From a virus: a stretch of DNA of 39,200 nucleotides. The position numbers were made by a program, and so were the translations under genes. Where the stretch lies: the IMG/VR virus record IMGVR_UViG_3300015360_001243, positions 113,999-153,198 of that record; one strand, given 5' to 3'. Below the pieces are notes generated by a model. It worked only from the letters and a program-made list of their open reading frames with translations, made no database searches and was not told the DNA's origin. Positions within the stretch are counted from its first letter, which is position 1; each line of letters opens with the position of its first letter. Of this stretch, positions 2 to 24,462 are shown one piece after another.

Positions 2-244
2 GCGCTAAGTATCCATGGCCCTTTCTTTAAGAAGCGTAAACAAATTGTAGAAAATACAAGAACACTGTCGCTGACTAATCAAACTAAAAAGGCTGTGTAC
101 AATGATTGGATGGTTAATGCTTTCATTCTCAAAGAGCCAGTCGACCAGGCATATTTAGTCTTTATCAAAAGGGTAGACGGAAAAAAGCTACCCATTCCAA
201 GAGGAATTATTACAGTTCCCATTTCCGATCTGAGGTTTGACTGA
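2..244 (+). CDS. Hypothetical protein, 5'-truncated by the window edge
   Basis: An open frame enters from the left edge and ends in TGA at 242-244, giving 80 visible residues. The visible part is basic near its start (FFKKRKQ) and ends with a beta-rich stretch (AYLVFIKRVDGKK, then IITVPISDL). The stop overlaps the next ATG by one base (TGATG), which implies translational coupling with the DksA-like gene. I do not recognise the family. The start lies outside the window, so length and domain content are unknown. It is called as coding because it is open to the edge, is coupled to the next gene and carries plausible protein composition. Confidence 0.6.
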   Translation, partial: ALSIHGPFFKKRKQIVENTRTLSLTNQTKKAVYNDWMVNAFILKEPVDQAYLVFIKRVDGKKLPIPRGIITVPISDLRFD

Positions 245-597
245 TGTTTACTAAGGCATTTTTAAAGAAGATTAAAGAGCAGTTATTGCAAGAGAAAGAA
301 GTTCTATCAGGAAAGGCCGTCCATCGTGCGGATATAGACACTGACGGAGATGAGACGGATGAAGTCCAAGGAAACATGTTGATTGAATTAGAGAATCAAC
401 TTAATTCTAGGAACAATCAAAAGCTAAGTCAAATTAATGACGCTCTCAAAAAGTTAGCAGATAAAACTTACGGATTATGTCAGGAATGCGAAGAAGATAT
501 TCCGGAAAAAAGATTGCTTCTTAACCCATATTTTGTAATATGTGTCTCCTGCGCCGAAGAACGTGAAACAGAAACCAAACAAAGAAAGAGGTTCTGA
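244..597 (+). CDS. DksA/TraR-family zinc finger protein
   Basis: A 117-residue protein with an N-terminal helical region and a C-terminal four-cysteine zinc finger (C79, C82, C100, C103). The pattern GLCQEC, then KRLL, then NP, then CVSC is typical of DksA/TraR proteins. Family members bind in the secondary channel of bacterial RNA polymerase and change initiation at selected promoters. DksA has a DxxDxA motif at its coiled-coil tip; here D36 and D39 sit at the matching place (DETDEV), with Ala replaced by Val. Length is between TraR and DksA. GAGG at 232-235 lies 8 bases before the ATG. The family call rests on the finger; an effect on host polymerase is inferred. Confidence 0.85.
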   Translation: MFTKAFLKKIKEQLLQEKEVLSGKAVHRADIDTDGDETDEVQGNMLIELENQLNSRNNQKLSQINDALKKLADKTYGLCQECEEDIPEKRLLLNPYFVICVSCAEERETETKQRKRF

Positions 598-599
598 AA

Positions 600-1184
600 T
601 TGAATACCATTGTAACTGAAACAACTGAACATGGCGAAATGCCAGTTGATGTTTATCAAAAACTATCTAACGATCGTATTCTTTTCATCTGCCATGAAAT
701 TGATGACCATCTGGCGGCAGATATTACCGCAACTTTGTTATTGAAAGATTCGGAAGATTCAACTAGAAAGATCACTTTATTTATCAATTCACAAGGTGGA
801 GACGTTCGAAACGCTTTCATGATTTGTGATATGATGGGAATGATTGAAGCTCCTATCGAAACAGTCTGCATCGGAGCTGCCATGAACGAGGCCGCTTTGA
901 TTCTTGCCTCGGGCACACCCGGTTGCCGCTTTGCCACCAAGAACGCAATCATCGCCTCTAGTCAACTTTCCCACGATTATTTCTCGCGAGGCAATTTAAC
1001 TGACGCTAAGAAGTTACTTGATTTGAGCTTAGGTGATAACAAGCGAATGATGGAGCTTCTATCACGAACTACTGGCAAGACTATGAAGCAAGTGACTGCC
1101 GATTTTGATCGTCAGGTGTTTATGACTTCTCAGCAAGCCGCTCGTTATGGTTTAATTGATAAAGTTGTTACATTTAGTAAATAA
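600..1184 (+). CDS. ClpP-like protein with all three catalytic residues replaced (ClpR-type)
   Basis: This 194-residue protein has the ClpP fold pattern: FINSQGGDV near residue 62, the CIG strand and helix at 90-105, and a C-terminal AARYGLIDKV. By alignment with canonical ClpP by eye, the nucleophile Ser is N96 (CIGAAMNEAA), the catalytic His is S121 (IIASSQL), and the catalytic Asp is Q172 (DRQVF). It should therefore have no peptidase activity. It lies directly before an intact ClpP gene, an arrangement reminiscent of the ClpR/ClpP mixed rings of cyanobacteria and plastids. The start is TTG at 600, behind AGAGG at 587-591; an ATG at 631 is the alternative. A structural subunit role is inferred. 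Confidence 0.85.
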   Translation: MNTIVTETTEHGEMPVDVYQKLSNDRILFICHEIDDHLAADITATLLLKDSEDSTRKITLFINSQGGDVRNAFMICDMMGMIEAPIETVCIGAAMNEAALILASGTPGCRFATKNAIIASSQLSHDYFSRGNLTDAKKLLDLSLGDNKRMMELLSRTTGKTMKQVTADFDRQVFMTSQQAARYGLIDKVVTFSK

Positions 1185-1193
1185 GGTAAGACT

Positions 1194-1778
1194 ATGAAGA
1201 ATCATGATCATGAACCGATGCGCGCCCCGCTCTTAATGGGGTATGCTGACACGTATGTCAAACTGGCTAAAAACCGTATCCTATTTGTTGCTGAAGGCGT
1301 TGATGATACTATGGCGGCCCAATTGTCTGCCATGTTACTATATTTAGATAATGAAGATCATGATAATCCAATTGAAATGTATATTCATTCCAATGGTGGG
1401 CATGTAACCGGATTGGCCAATATCTATGACGTCATGCAAATGATTAAAGCGCCTATCAAAACTGTTTGTATTGGTAAGTGTTACTCAGCCGCCGCAGTCT
1501 TGCTTGCTGCCGGAACGAAGGGCATGCGCTATGCCTTTAGGAATTCCAGCGTAATGATTCATGGAATCCAGTTTGGTTTCCCTATTCCCGGTCATGATAT
1601 GACGAGTTCTAAGAGTTATTTTGATTTTGTCAATAGCAATAATGATAATATTATGAAAATGTTAGCATCTCATACCGGGCATACTTTGGAAAAGGTAAAG
1701 GCCGATTGTAAGGAAGATGTTTGGTTGACGGCTGAAGGAGCTAAAGCTTACGGTATTATTGACCATATTGTTGGTTAA
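1194..1778 (+). CDS. clpP: ATP-dependent Clp protease proteolytic subunit (S14 family)
   Basis: A 194-residue ClpP with an intact serine-protease triad: S98 (CYSAAA), H123 (VMIHG) and D175 (KEDVWLTA). It also has the IHSNGGHV strand at 64-71 and the closing AYGIIDHIV. ClpP forms two stacked heptameric rings that degrade proteins fed by ClpX or ClpA. No Clp ATPase is seen in this window, so a host unfoldase may be used. The inactive paralogue lies 9 bases upstream, and the two proteins share length and many positions, suggesting a duplication. Some phage S14 enzymes serve as prohead proteases; the length and canonical motifs favour ClpP proper, but no capsid gene is visible to test this. Confidence 0.92.
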   Translation: MKNHDHEPMRAPLLMGYADTYVKLAKNRILFVAEGVDDTMAAQLSAMLLYLDNEDHDNPIEMYIHSNGGHVTGLANIYDVMQMIKAPIKTVCIGKCYSAAAVLLAAGTKGMRYAFRNSSVMIHGIQFGFPIPGHDMTSSKSYFDFVNSNNDNIMKMLASHTGHTLEKVKADCKEDVWLTAEGAKAYGIIDHIVG

Positions 1779-1800
1779 ATAGAATTTGTTGTGGAGTGAC

Positions 1801-1830
1801 AGAGGCCCTTTTGGGCCTTTTGTCGTTTTA
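1801..1830 (+). terminator. Rho-independent terminator after the clpP pair
   Basis: AGGCCC (1803-1808), a TTTT loop and GGGCCT (1813-1818) form a perfect six-pair stem. It can be extended by one G-T and one A-T pair, and a T-rich tail follows (TTTTGTCGTTTT). It sits 22 bases after the clpP stop and marks the end of the upstream operon. It also argues against starting the next gene at the TTG at 1786, which would place the stem inside the coding region. Confidence 0.8.
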
Positions 1831-1872
1831 GAATTCAAATTAGGTGGAATAGCAATATTTTCCTATATCTTT

Positions 1873-3447
1873 ATGCTTAAAGTGGCCCGTAAACCATCTA
1901 CAGATCCGGTTCAGGAGAAGTTGAGGAACAATAAAGCCTTGTGGAACAAGGAAATTTCTGTTTTCATCAACGACCTAATCCATTTGAAAAAGACGATGAA
2001 TGGCTGGCCCTCCAAGTTCTATCAAGAGAAATCTTTTATTAAGGAACCTATTCCTGCTGATCCTGTTAGCATTTTAGGAGTTTTAACGGGCGACTTCCAA
2101 GAAATTGCTCAAAAGGGCAATGGCATCGTTCAAGAGCAATTGAATTATGCTAAGACTCGCCGTAAGAAACAACCAAAGCAACTAAATTTACCATTAGGTC
2201 AACCACAGCCTAAGCCAACGACAGAGCCAGCGGCTCCGGAGCCAGATTTGTCACAACAACTTGCCCTTCCTAGTGTAGCTTCTCAAGAATCTGATTTAGT
2301 TAAAGTAGCATCTAAATTTGAAGATAAGTACTCTTTTGAAAAAGAGGCTTCTAACGTTTTCACTCGTTTCTTTACGAAATTATTTAATCCAACTATTGGA
2401 TTTGGAGATAAAGCAGATCTACGTAGAGCCAGAATGGCTATGTTGGATTCCGCCGCCACTTCCTATAAAGGTCTTGCATATTTTCAAGCAACAGTCGTTA
2501 AATCTTCTAAAGATAGTATTCATGTCGCTCAAAAGCAACTTGATGAAGTGTGGAACAATTGGAATTTAGTATCTAAACCTTATGCCATTTTTAAAGCTAG
2601 TAAATCTATCAATGCCCCAGATAAAGGCGGTACGATTGAATCACTAATCAATAAAGATAATGATACAGAAGAAAAAATTCTTGAAAAAACTCACGAAGGA
2701 TTAGAAGATATTTCTCCTGAAGAGGCTGCTGAAGAAGTATCAGAACAAAGCAATAGACCACGTTCTCCTCAAGTAGATCCTATCTACAGGTTAGAGGTTG
2801 TTAAGAATATGGCCGCCGACTACAGGAATTACTATCCACTTTTAGCTTCCTATAATCTTGATGGTGGTGGATATCTTTACGAACTCGATGCTGCCGTTGA
2901 TAAGCTTGTTGCTACTAAAGGGAAAGTTATAACCCCAGATTTTAATATGTTCTATGAAAAGGCTGTTAGATATAGTAATCAAGAATTAGGAACTACTGCT
3001 AATAGTTTTAGGGAAATGGTTAGTCAACTAAAGGCCCGCGCTAAACAACAGTTGAAACCACAACCTGCTATCAAGCCTGTACCAGTTACTCCTGCTGTTG
3101 TTGAAGATGCTCCACCAGATACTTTAGATCCAACAAAAACTGCAATGGAAAAAACTGCTCAAAAATTCCTACAAAAGTGGTTTGGCAAAACCAGACATCA
3201 ACTCAGTATGTTTGATAAAACATCTTCTAATAGACTTAATTGTTTTAAGATGGCAGAAGAATTAAGAAAAGAAATTAATAACATAATGAATGAGTTAGAA
3301 AAGGGTCTTGATCAAGAGAAATTAGATCCGCTTATGAAGAACGCTCAAAGTAAAATGACTATTTTAAGAGGCTTGATGAGATCATTACATTTATCTCTTC
3401 AATTAGCTGAGAAATCTAAGAAGCCCCAAAAACCTAAGAAGAAGTAA
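1873..3447 (+). CDS. Hypothetical helical protein with Pro-rich linkers
   Basis: I do not recognise this 524-residue protein. It alternates helical segments with Pro/Gln/Glu-rich linkers (around residues 115-150, 295-310 and 400-420) and ends in a lysine-rich tail (KSKKPQKPKKK). Two segments, near residues 170-190 and 425-445, share a pattern of Lys, Ala, Phe and Trp (EKEASNVFTRFF and KTAQKFLQKWF), possibly a degenerate repeat. There is no signal peptide or clear membrane span. I chose ATG 1873 rather than TTG 1786 because the longer frame runs through the terminator at 1801-1830. No good Shine-Dalgarno precedes 1873, so the start is uncertain. The linkers would fit a virion-associated or scaffold protein, but this is a guess. 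Confidence 0.75.
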   Translation: MLKVARKPSTDPVQEKLRNNKALWNKEISVFINDLIHLKKTMNGWPSKFYQEKSFIKEPIPADPVSILGVLTGDFQEIAQKGNGIVQEQLNYAKTRRKKQPKQLNLPLGQPQPKPTTEPAAPEPDLSQQLALPSVASQESDLVKVASKFEDKYSFEKEASNVFTRFFTKLFNPTIGFGDKADLRRARMAMLDSAATSYKGLAYFQATVVKSSKDSIHVAQKQLDEVWNNWNLVSKPYAIFKASKSINAPDKGGTIESLINKDNDTEEKILEKTHEGLEDISPEEAAEEVSEQSNRPRSPQVDPIYRLEVVKNMAADYRNYYPLLASYNLDGGGYLYELDAAVDKLVATKGKVITPDFNMFYEKAVRYSNQELGTTANSFREMVSQLKARAKQQLKPQPAIKPVPVTPAVVEDAPPDTLDPTKTAMEKTAQKFLQKWFGKTRHQLSMFDKTSSNRLNCFKMAEELRKEINNIMNELEKGLDQEKLDPLMKNAQSKMTILRGLMRSLHLSLQLAEKSKKPQKPKKK

Positions 3448-3448
3448 T

Positions 3449-3856
3449 ATGGAAAACGGATTTATCTTTTTAGACACTAATGTATTTCCAACTCTTTTTG
3501 CTATTTCAGAAGAAGAGCAAGCTAAAGGTTTAATGAAGAGAGACTGGCCACCTCCAGTTATGTCTTTCATTTACGGTTCTCCTAGAGTCACTCAGTTTTG
3601 GATGAAGAATACTCCAAGCCCTCTTGATATTATTTTTTCTTGCAATGGTGTTATTACGCAAATCTGTAGAGGGGAACCCTGGTCTACGGATCTAGTTGGA
3701 GATTATCGACCAAGTGACTTGGTGGTAGAGTTACCATTTGGCACGGCTCTTGCATCCGGTATCAAGGTAGGACACAAGGTAGGCTTGGTCAAACCCACGT
3801 ACGACGAATTGAAAAGAATTGTTGCCGCCAAATATAACGGTATTATAAAAATTTAA
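3449..3856 (+). CDS. DUF192-family protein
   Basis: A 135-residue protein matching the DUF192 (COG1430) pattern in order: EEEQAKGLMKRDW near residues 21-33, FIYGSPRVTQFWMKNTPSPLD at about 45-64, an II-F strand with Ile-Thr-Gln-Ile, and VVELPFGTALASGIKVGHKV near 100. The FWMKNT-PLD core is diagnostic. The molecular function of the family is not established; members are small beta-rich single-domain proteins, often exported in bacteria. This copy has no signal peptide, so it would be cytoplasmic or virion-associated. It follows the upstream gene by one base and is probably co-transcribed. Confidence 0.85.
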   Translation: MENGFIFLDTNVFPTLFAISEEEQAKGLMKRDWPPPVMSFIYGSPRVTQFWMKNTPSPLDIIFSCNGVITQICRGEPWSTDLVGDYRPSDLVVELPFGTALASGIKVGHKVGLVKPTYDELKRIVAAKYNGIIKI

Positions 3857-3896: not shown

Positions 3897-4883
3897 ATGG
3901 ATGCAATTCATGACTTCAACCACATTCTCAAGTCTTTCAATATTAAGGCTACCTGTGTCAACTACAGTCAGGTAGATAGCTATTTCTATTATGATTTGAA
4001 GCTTAATCCGAATGCTAGGGTTCGAGATATCCAGAAGTATAGCGATGAGATCTCTCTTGCGCTCAAGACTCCTTGTAAGCCTAGCGTTAAGGTACTTCAT
4101 AGCGAGGGAGTTGTCCGCTTGGAATTTGCTGGTCCCCGGACGAAGGTGCTCAAGCTATTTGATTATTTTACTAACGATAAGGTTCCTACCGGCCAAATTA
4201 ACTGTCTGTTGGGACAAACTGTTGAGGGTCAGAGAATGTGGATGGACTTAGCGACTAATCCGCACATGCTTATCTCTGGAACCACTGGCTCTGGAAAGAG
4301 TGTTCTTCTTCACAACATTATCGCCAACTTGTTGAACTACAACAATGTTGATCTATATCTTATCGATCCTAAGAGGATTGAATTTTCGGGGTATGAGAGT
4401 ATTGAAAAAATTAATGTTTCATACACCTATGAAGATGCGGTCTCTTTGCTTGAGGGTATGCTCCAAGTAATGGAAGATCGATACAATAGAATGAGACTGG
4501 GACAGAATCCTGCGTCTATCAAACCGATAGTTATTATTATCGACGAATTTGCAGACCTCATTTTACAAGACAAGAATGATGTGTTCTACACTTCACTTTG
4601 TCGATTGGCACAGAAATGTAGGGCTGCTAAGATTCATATTGTCCTGGCTACTCAACGTCCCTCTGTCAATATCATCAACGGTGTCATTAAAGCTAACTTT
4701 CCGGCTCGTATCGCATGTCGAGTGGCCAGCCATGTTGACTCTAAAGTTATTTTGGATTCTTCAGGGGCTGAAAATTTGCTTGGCAAGGGCGATGCTCTTG
4801 TTCGTGACAACTCTAGGTTCTTAGAACGATTTCAGATTGCATATACAGATGCGGCTGAAGTCTGTTCTATATTCGGTGTATAA
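3897..4883 (+). CDS. FtsK/SpoIIIE-type DNA translocase motor
   Basis: A 328-residue protein consisting only of the soluble motor. An alpha-type subdomain (about 25-85) precedes the RecA-like ATPase with Walker A GTTGSGKS (128-135), an IDPKR strand, Walker B IIIDEFAD (213-220, with D216 and E217), the ATQRPS segment and a closing LLGKGDAL. These match cellular FtsK closely. FtsK motors form hexamers that pump double-stranded DNA. The membrane domain and the C-terminal gamma domain that reads KOPS sequences are missing. In a phage it could move or resolve genome concatemers, or serve packaging, but it is not a terminase by sequence. No clear ribosome binding site precedes ATG 3897. Its stop overlaps the next ATG (TAATG). 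Confidence 0.92.
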   Translation: MDAIHDFNHILKSFNIKATCVNYSQVDSYFYYDLKLNPNARVRDIQKYSDEISLALKTPCKPSVKVLHSEGVVRLEFAGPRTKVLKLFDYFTNDKVPTGQINCLLGQTVEGQRMWMDLATNPHMLISGTTGSGKSVLLHNIIANLLNYNNVDLYLIDPKRIEFSGYESIEKINVSYTYEDAVSLLEGMLQVMEDRYNRMRLGQNPASIKPIVIIIDEFADLILQDKNDVFYTSLCRLAQKCRAAKIHIVLATQRPSVNIINGVIKANFPARIACRVASHVDSKVILDSSGAENLLGKGDALVRDNSRFLERFQIAYTDAAEVCSIFGV

Positions 4884-23214: not shown

Positions 23215-24462
23215 ATGCAAATTGAAGTTAAAGAAATTGAACCATGCAAGTTGTCGATTCATTATACGGCTTCCGCCCTAGAGATTATGAATAAGCGAGG
23301 AGAAATACTCACTCATTTCAAGAAGGCTCCGGTTCCAGGCTTCCGTCAAGGTAAGGCATCCTTAGATGCTATTAAGGTTCATTATCGCACTCAAATCGAA
23401 GAGTCTCTTAAGAGAGCTTTGGCAGAAGATGCGTATCACAATACCTTATTTGAAAAGAAGATTAAGCCCCACGGCGCCCCACGTTTCAATTCCCTGCTTA
23501 TGGCAGATGGCAAGTTTACGTGTGAATTCGATTTACACACTAAACCAGAGTTTGAGATGGCGTCTTATATTGACATAACACTTCCTAAGCCGCATGAGGA
23601 AGAAGATGAAGTCGCGGTCACTGAAAAAATGATGCAGGAACTTAGAGTTCGTTTTGGTGAAGTTACTCCTTTTTCTGAAACTGATTTCGTTGAGAATGGC
23701 GATAATGTCATTCTAGACTATGAGGGTTTCTTAGATGGTGAGAGGGTTGAAAATCTTTGCGCCACCGGAGAGATGCTTACCGTTGGTAATACCAATTTTA
23801 CGTATTTCGATCAGAACATTCTTGGAATGATTGTTGGCGAAACAAGAGAGTTTGATTTGCTTGTTCCAGAAGATAGTCTGCCTTCTTTAGCTGGTAAGAG
23901 CGTACACCTTGTTGTAACACTTCATACCGGATCTAAGACTGTTCCGTATCCTCTAGATGATACTTTGGCAATTCGTCTTGGAAAGAAAGATTTTTCTGAG
24001 TTAAAGGAATATGTTAAGGGTACTGCCGCTGCTACTCTTCAAAACAAAGCAAAGGGCCAGATTAACGAAGCCGTTGCTAATAAGTTAGTGGCTGAGACCG
24101 TTATTGCAGTTCCAAACTGGATGTCTCTATCTGAGGCTCAATATTTAGCACATAACGCTAAAATTGATTGGGCTACAATGGCTGACGTTGATAGAGAGAA
24201 ATATCTCAGCATGGCAGAGAAGAATGTCAAGCTAGCTTTGATTCTAGATAGAGTTAGAGAAGAACAGCCCGAAGCTCAGTTGACTGATCAAGAAGTGTTT
24301 GATGTTATCAAACAGAATCTTGCTAAAACTAATGTGAATAGACCAATGGACGAAGTCATGGAACAAATGAATAAGTCTGGATATTTGCAAATTTTGTTCT
24401 CTCGTATTCGAGATGAACATACCATGGATTACATTACTAAAAGTGTAAAATTTGTTGAATAA
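23215..24462 (+). CDS. tig: Trigger factor (ribosome-associated chaperone)
   Basis: A 415-residue protein matching bacterial trigger factor end to end. The ribosome-binding loop is GFRQGK at 42-47, at the position and with nearly the sequence used by E. coli to bind uL23 at the exit tunnel. A FKBP-like prolyl isomerase region spans about 155-240 (VILDYEGFLDG, later GMIVGETREF), followed by the helical C-terminal chaperone arms. Trigger factor greets new chains as they leave the ribosome. An AGAGGA ribosome binding site precedes it. Together with deformylase and bS21 here it suggests control of translation output. Slightly shorter than E. coli (432 residues), mainly C-terminal. Confidence 0.93.
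   Translation: MQIEVKEIEPCKLSIHYTASALEIMNKRGEILTHFKKAPVPGFRQGKASLDAIKVHYRTQIEESLKRALAEDAYHNTLFEKKIKPHGAPRFNSLLMADGKFTCEFDLHTKPEFEMASYIDITLPKPHEEEDEVAVTEKMMQELRVRFGEVTPFSETDFVENGDNVILDYEGFLDGERVENLCATGEMLTVGNTNFTYFDQNILGMIVGETREFDLLVPEDSLPSLAGKSVHLVVTLHTGSKTVPYPLDDTLAIRLGKKDFSELKEYVKGTAAATLQNKAKGQINEAVANKLVAETVIAVPNWMSLSEAQYLAHNAKIDWATMADVDREKYLSMAEKNVKLALILDRVREEQPEAQLTDQEVFDVIKQNLAKTNVNRPMDEVMEQMNKSGYLQILFSRIRDEHTMDYITKSVKFVE

Follow-up and report, generated by a model that had tools for sequence, protein, structure and literature searches.

A conserved tandem of catalytically dead and active ClpP homologues in huge phages, a candidate two-subunit Clp peptidase

Why should a phage encode, side by side, one ClpP homologue with a complete catalytic triad and another from which the whole triad is gone? 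The question is raised by a gene pair in the final 39 kb of a virus record of 153 kb (IMG/VR record IMGVR_UViG_3300015360_001243, positions 113,999 to 153,198; this stretch of 39,200 nucleotides is referred to below as the window). A preliminary description had reported two 194-residue ClpP-like proteins encoded 9 bases apart, and the coordinates and Pfam matches agree with this. The features on which the argument draws are as follows, in window coordinates.

244..597, + strand: DksA/TraR-type zinc-finger gene (PF01258, 1.1e-10), the upstream neighbour in 31/31 loci, 2 bases from G1
588..591, + strand: GAGG, probable ribosome-binding site of G1, read from the sequence, within the 3' end of the DksA gene
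600..1184, + strand: Gene 1 (G1), TTG start, 194 aa, catalytically dead ClpP homologue (PF00574)
1194..1778, + strand: Gene 2 (G2), ATG start, 194 aa, catalytic ClpP homologue (PF00574)
1786..3447, + strand: 553-aa protein with no Pfam or PHROG match, the downstream neighbour in 29/31 loci
3449..3856, + strand: DUF192 protein (PF02643, 8.7e-17), a neighbour in 30/31 loci
3897..4883, + strand: FtsK/SpoIIIE-like ATPase (PF01580, 1.7e-34), a neighbour in 29/31 loci
23215..24462, + strand: phage trigger factor (PF05697, 5e-19; PF05698, 1.2e-10), a possible functional partner

G1 and G2 lie in one frame, G1 ending in TAA, and each matches nearly the whole CLP_protease domain (PF00574; 9.6e-46 for G1 and 2.5e-51 for G2). 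The gene order, upstream ORF - DksA - G1 - G2 - 553-aa protein - DUF192 - FtsK, is conserved in nearly all loci. Across relatives the gap between G1 and G2 is mostly 0-12 bases, and several show an ATGA-type start/stop overlap. In 27 of 31 loci G1 starts with TTG. Immediately ahead of this codon, the end of the DksA-like gene contains a purine-rich run that, in most relatives, occupies the position of the GAGG in the window. This conserved weak start may set the ratio of the two subunits.

To see how far the pair extends, IMG/VR was scanned using each protein alone and an alignment of each as queries. The scans returned 36 further contigs carrying the pair, the largest of 481 kb. The preliminary description had proposed checking whether the homologues always occur together; including the present record, G1 and G2 were adjacent in 37/37 records and neither was ever found alone. 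When 24 whole records were searched with Pfam, each gave one adjacent pair, and one of them a distant third ClpP-like match in addition. Seven other phage contigs (L054, L055, L056, L058, L061, L065 and L066) also carry an adjacent ClpP-like pair, but there both members have S-H-D, in contrast to the dead/active pair described here.

The residue counts that follow are based on 31 distinct G1 and 31 distinct G2 sequences. In the window, G2 keeps S98, H123 and D175, as had been reported, and the residues of G1 at these places, when aligned to E. coli ClpP, are N96, S121 and Q172. The triad is present throughout G2 (S31, H31, D22/E9), although the acid is Glu in 9/31. The S-H-E form occurs in one G2 subclade (L006, L009-L014, L019, L027). 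Among the G1 sequences, the position of Ser97 (E. coli numbering) is occupied by D18/N7/other, that of His122 by S16/T6/G5/N3 and that of Asp171 by R16/K9/Q2; in none of the 31 is S, H or D found at its own catalytic position. The loss of all three residues from G1 is therefore neither chance nor a local mutation, and no G1 homologue with a triad was found among the 31 phage sequences. Importantly, the former active site of G1 is itself conserved, with R71 in 31/31, E98 in 29/31, Q123 in 30/31 and L124 in 31/31, within the pattern R71, D/N97-E98, S/T122-Q123-L124 and R/K171. This indicates that the triad loss is not decay. Among the best 80 bacterial ClpP relatives, 77 have SHD and 3 SHN, none being dead, and the phage ClpPs just outside the G1 and G2 families deviate from an intact triad by no more than Asn in place of Asp. 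Thus, G1 and G2 both have the fold and domain of S14 ClpPs, while the triad is found in G2 and not in G1.

In a maximum-likelihood tree, G1 and G2 each formed a clade with an SH-aLRT value of 99, were sister clades (87) and were separate from the ClpPs of bacteria and of other phages. Since both are monophyletic and sister to each other, they derive from one duplication in the phage lineage, and the loss of the whole triad from one copy preceded the radiation of the clade. In a second tree, to which cyanobacterial ClpR and the neighbouring active ClpP were added, G1 and G2 again formed one clade of 62 rows (99), and ClpR a separate clade (96); judged by these trees, the dead phage copy is of an origin independent of ClpR. 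For the closest pairs in which synonymous change is unsaturated, dN/dS was about 0.03-0.12 for both G1 and G2. Both genes are under strong purifying selection, as the preliminary description had supposed for the dead copy. The partial correlation of G1 and G2 tree distances, corrected for three neighbouring genes, was 0.74, the highest in the block; the adjacent FtsK and 448-aa genes reached 0.68, and part of the G1-G2 correlation is explained by common phage phylogeny and adjacency.

We then compared the two proteins as structures. An AlphaFold2 (AF2) model of G1 alone had a pLDDT of 86 and a pTM of 0.80, and its best PDB match in Foldseek was M. tuberculosis ClpP2 (TM ~0.91), many other ClpPs being nearly equal. 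As modelled, the ClpP fold is kept in G1, which upholds the earlier claim that the fold survived the loss of catalysis. The N-terminus of G1 is canonical for ClpP (E8, T10, G13, E/D14, D18) and was modelled as an axial beta hairpin (strands 4-9/12-17); its C-terminal tail has a median length of 4 residues with a near-invariant Lys. G2 differs at both ends: the hairpin is gone and replaced by a variable, often His-rich segment, and the protein stops at the last strand with no tail. Arg192 of the E. coli ClpP tail is needed for ClpX binding (PMC7112951). G1 lacks this exact residue, a position at which bacterial ClpPs vary. The residues of the unfoldase pocket are partly hydrophobic in both proteins, and the sequence singles out neither as the docking face. 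A further difference concerns the ring-ring handle, Q-P-x-G-G-x-x-G-Q, which is near invariant in bacteria (G130 in 80/80 and Q131 in 77/80 of 80 bacterial ClpPs). Neither protein keeps this motif, and what stands in its place differs between G1 and G2, as would be expected if they are partners of each other and not of host ClpP. When both proteins were modelled as one chain, with the TAA of G1 read as Gln and ten paired homologues, AF2 returned a pLDDT of 83 and a pTM of 0.81; a PDB fold search with this fused model aligned one half only. The pTM is above that expected for randomly placed domains and lends weak support to an association, AF2 being a predictor that knows ClpP rings; the tree-distance correlation likewise counts as weak support.

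A dead ClpP paralogue combined with an active ClpP is also found in the ClpP3-ClpR core of cyanobacteria, plastids and apicoplasts (PMC7966870). In the sampled cyanobacterial genomes ClpR lies directly upstream of the active ClpP gene (loci L225-L234 and L237), so that, as for G1 and G2, the dead gene comes first. In L232 the active gene is preceded by a pair of dead copies, and L233 likewise has a pair of them next to its single active gene. The inactivation itself differs, however: in ClpR, Ser is replaced by Gly, His is often kept and the QPxxxxGQA handle is kept, whereas G1 has D/N, S/T and R/K and has lost the handle. Cyanobacteria, moreover, have their own ClpC. G1 shares the loss of the triad (31/31) with ClpR but not its lineage (clades 96 vs 99). 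The likeness to ClpP-ClpR rings drawn in the preliminary description is well supported as the best analogy for G1 and G2, but it does not extend to membership, G1 falling outside the cyanobacterial ClpR clade.

In functional terms the nearest precedent is M. tuberculosis ClpP1P2 (PDB 4u0g), likewise two ClpPs in one operon. There, ClpP2 docks the unfoldase and ClpP1 supplies the essential catalysis, and a strain with forced ClpP1P2 asymmetry grows normally (PMC9067928). The phage pair is similarly operonic, and the N- and C-terminal features of the docking side are found only in G1, the pocket residues being ambiguous in both proteins. ClpP2 of this bacterial, non-viral system keeps its triad, whereas the sequences of G1 and G2 show a complete division of labour; by analogy, the phage pair looks like the M. 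tuberculosis division made permanent. Other phage S14 peptidases are known as the single ClpPs of jumbo phages (PMC7824862; e.g. Phosso, XaC1 and the Lak phages); those examined (Phosso and three ~640-kb records) have an active triad, and no dead partner is described for them. A member of the G1 family has already been deposited, as UniProt A0A6J5RS39 from an uncultured Caudovirales phage. It is 70% identical to G1 and is annotated plainly as a ClpP protease subunit, its inactivation being unmentioned. Among the papers searched, none describes a phage ClpP that is dead or a pair of phage ClpPs.

If the pair forms a peptidase, which motor would serve it? We looked for a ClpP-docking phage unfoldase (ClpX/A/C) in 24 records and found none, although the records are probably incomplete and one could be missed. 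The single strong AAA_2 match was a ClpB-like protein without the xGF (IGF/LGF) loop. Recurrent weak AAA_2 matches were considered as ClpP unfoldases and rejected as MoxR-like. With no ClpP-docking unfoldase found in these records, a host unfoldase is a plausible motor. Trigger factor, by contrast, is encoded in 24/24 pair-carrying records; a functional link between trigger factor and ClpXP is reported in PMC7804408. The window also contains genes for peptide deformylase (14306), bS21 (10273), DnaJ (36598) and an M41-like peptidase fragment (25076), which together with trigger factor make up a phage protein-quality set without ClpX. The same phage encodes, in the upstream 0-76 kb, a PurZ-like adenylosuccinate synthetase, tRNA synthetases, EF-Ts, Thg1, NAMPT, PARP, ADP-ribosylglycohydrolases and RIIA/RIIB homologues. 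As a separate observation, a MoxR-like AAA ATPase gene in L209 (G006:C1:34500-37500) has an intein-like insertion with an HN|T junction at the Walker A region, which its relatives lack.

Taken together, these results are best explained if G1 and G2 are the two subunits of a phage hetero-oligomeric Clp peptidase, a reading we hold to be probable, in which G2 cuts and G1 builds the complex and probably provides both the gate and the surface on which a host AAA+ unfoldase docks. Its parts are not equally secure. We are fairly confident that G1 and G2 form a hetero-complex, be it a mixed ring or two stacked homorings; a host unfoldase as partner is somewhat favoured, and the chances that G1 is the gate and docking ring are about even. 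In the proposed arrangement, the peptidase would consist of two stacked seven-membered rings and cutting would be done by G2. G1 would have given up catalysis, its axial N-terminal hairpins gating the pore and its C-terminal tail lying by the unfoldase-binding cleft; since G1 keeps the terminal parts that G2 has lost, the complex would be asymmetric. Host ClpX, ClpA or ClpC would bind the G1 face and thread substrate to the G2 sites, and the phage trigger factor may deliver substrates or shield them. More tentatively, and with the odds somewhat against it, the pair could be a fully asymmetric viral Clp machine in which a dead G1 ring hijacks the host unfoldase by linking it to a phage-specific peptidase, so that a host route of protein destruction is taken over during infection.

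Phages attack host proteolysis, and a dead protein that keeps the ClpP fold and the unfoldase-side features could also act as a dominant-negative or decoy, entering host ClpP rings or covering host ClpX and so blocking host proteolysis, while G2 works independently. This would leave unexplained why each of the 37 records with G1 also has G2; given the replaced Q-P-x-G-G-x-x-G-Q strand, G1 is unlikely to pair with host rings, and G2 alone would be a ClpP without axial hairpins. We regard it as unlikely. Our estimate is hardly different, if a shade lower, for G1 as a homo-oligomer of its own with a non-proteolytic task, such as a chaperone-like cage or a new activity on the D/N-E, S/T-Q-L and R/K residues: the dead site is indeed not drifting (E98, Q123, L124 and R71 are fixed), but the strict tandem with an active paralogue, the translational coupling and the congruent trees point to a shared complex.

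A role in head maturation was weighed because the top PHROG matches of both proteins are head maturation proteases (phrog_94), a class with the ClpP fold, and because no separate S77/S78 protease was detected; Pfam families for T4-type prohead protease, capsid and portal matched in no record at all and are therefore uninformative on this point. Both proteins are nevertheless closer to cellular ClpP (PF00574 1e-45/2.5e-51 vs PHROG 4e-14/5e-23 for G1/G2), and the pair lies within a conserved DksA/FtsK/topoisomerase/replication block, a region of replication and proteostasis genes. Terminase is ~45-53 kb away wherever it was found and tail sheath ~100-120 kb away, the portal adjoins terminase in the 481-kb relative, and the families listed for the window and for the upstream 0-76 kb include no structural genes. 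With the pair ~50 kb from terminase and portal, a hetero-oligomeric prohead protease, which the preliminary description had named as the outcome that would undo its proposal, is very improbable. Scarcely any credence remains for a self-contained ClpP1P2-type peptidase working without an AAA+ partner, in which the hairpin-less G2 face is open, with G1 as its regulator or cap. The lack of an axial hairpin in G2 and of a ClpP-docking unfoldase among the matches in the 24 records would fit this, but G1 keeps the hairpin and tail that are used with unfoldases, and host ClpX or ClpA is on hand in most bacteria.

The purpose of dead subunits of the ClpR type has been described as poorly understood (PMC9067928). 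G1 and G2 are a ClpR-like dead/active tandem of independent viral origin, with two subunits only, among which the features are cleanly divided. In so small a system, the idea that one ring docks while the other cuts can be tested directly. The hetero-oligomeric reading would mean that a two-part Clp peptidase of their own belongs to the core genes of huge phages.
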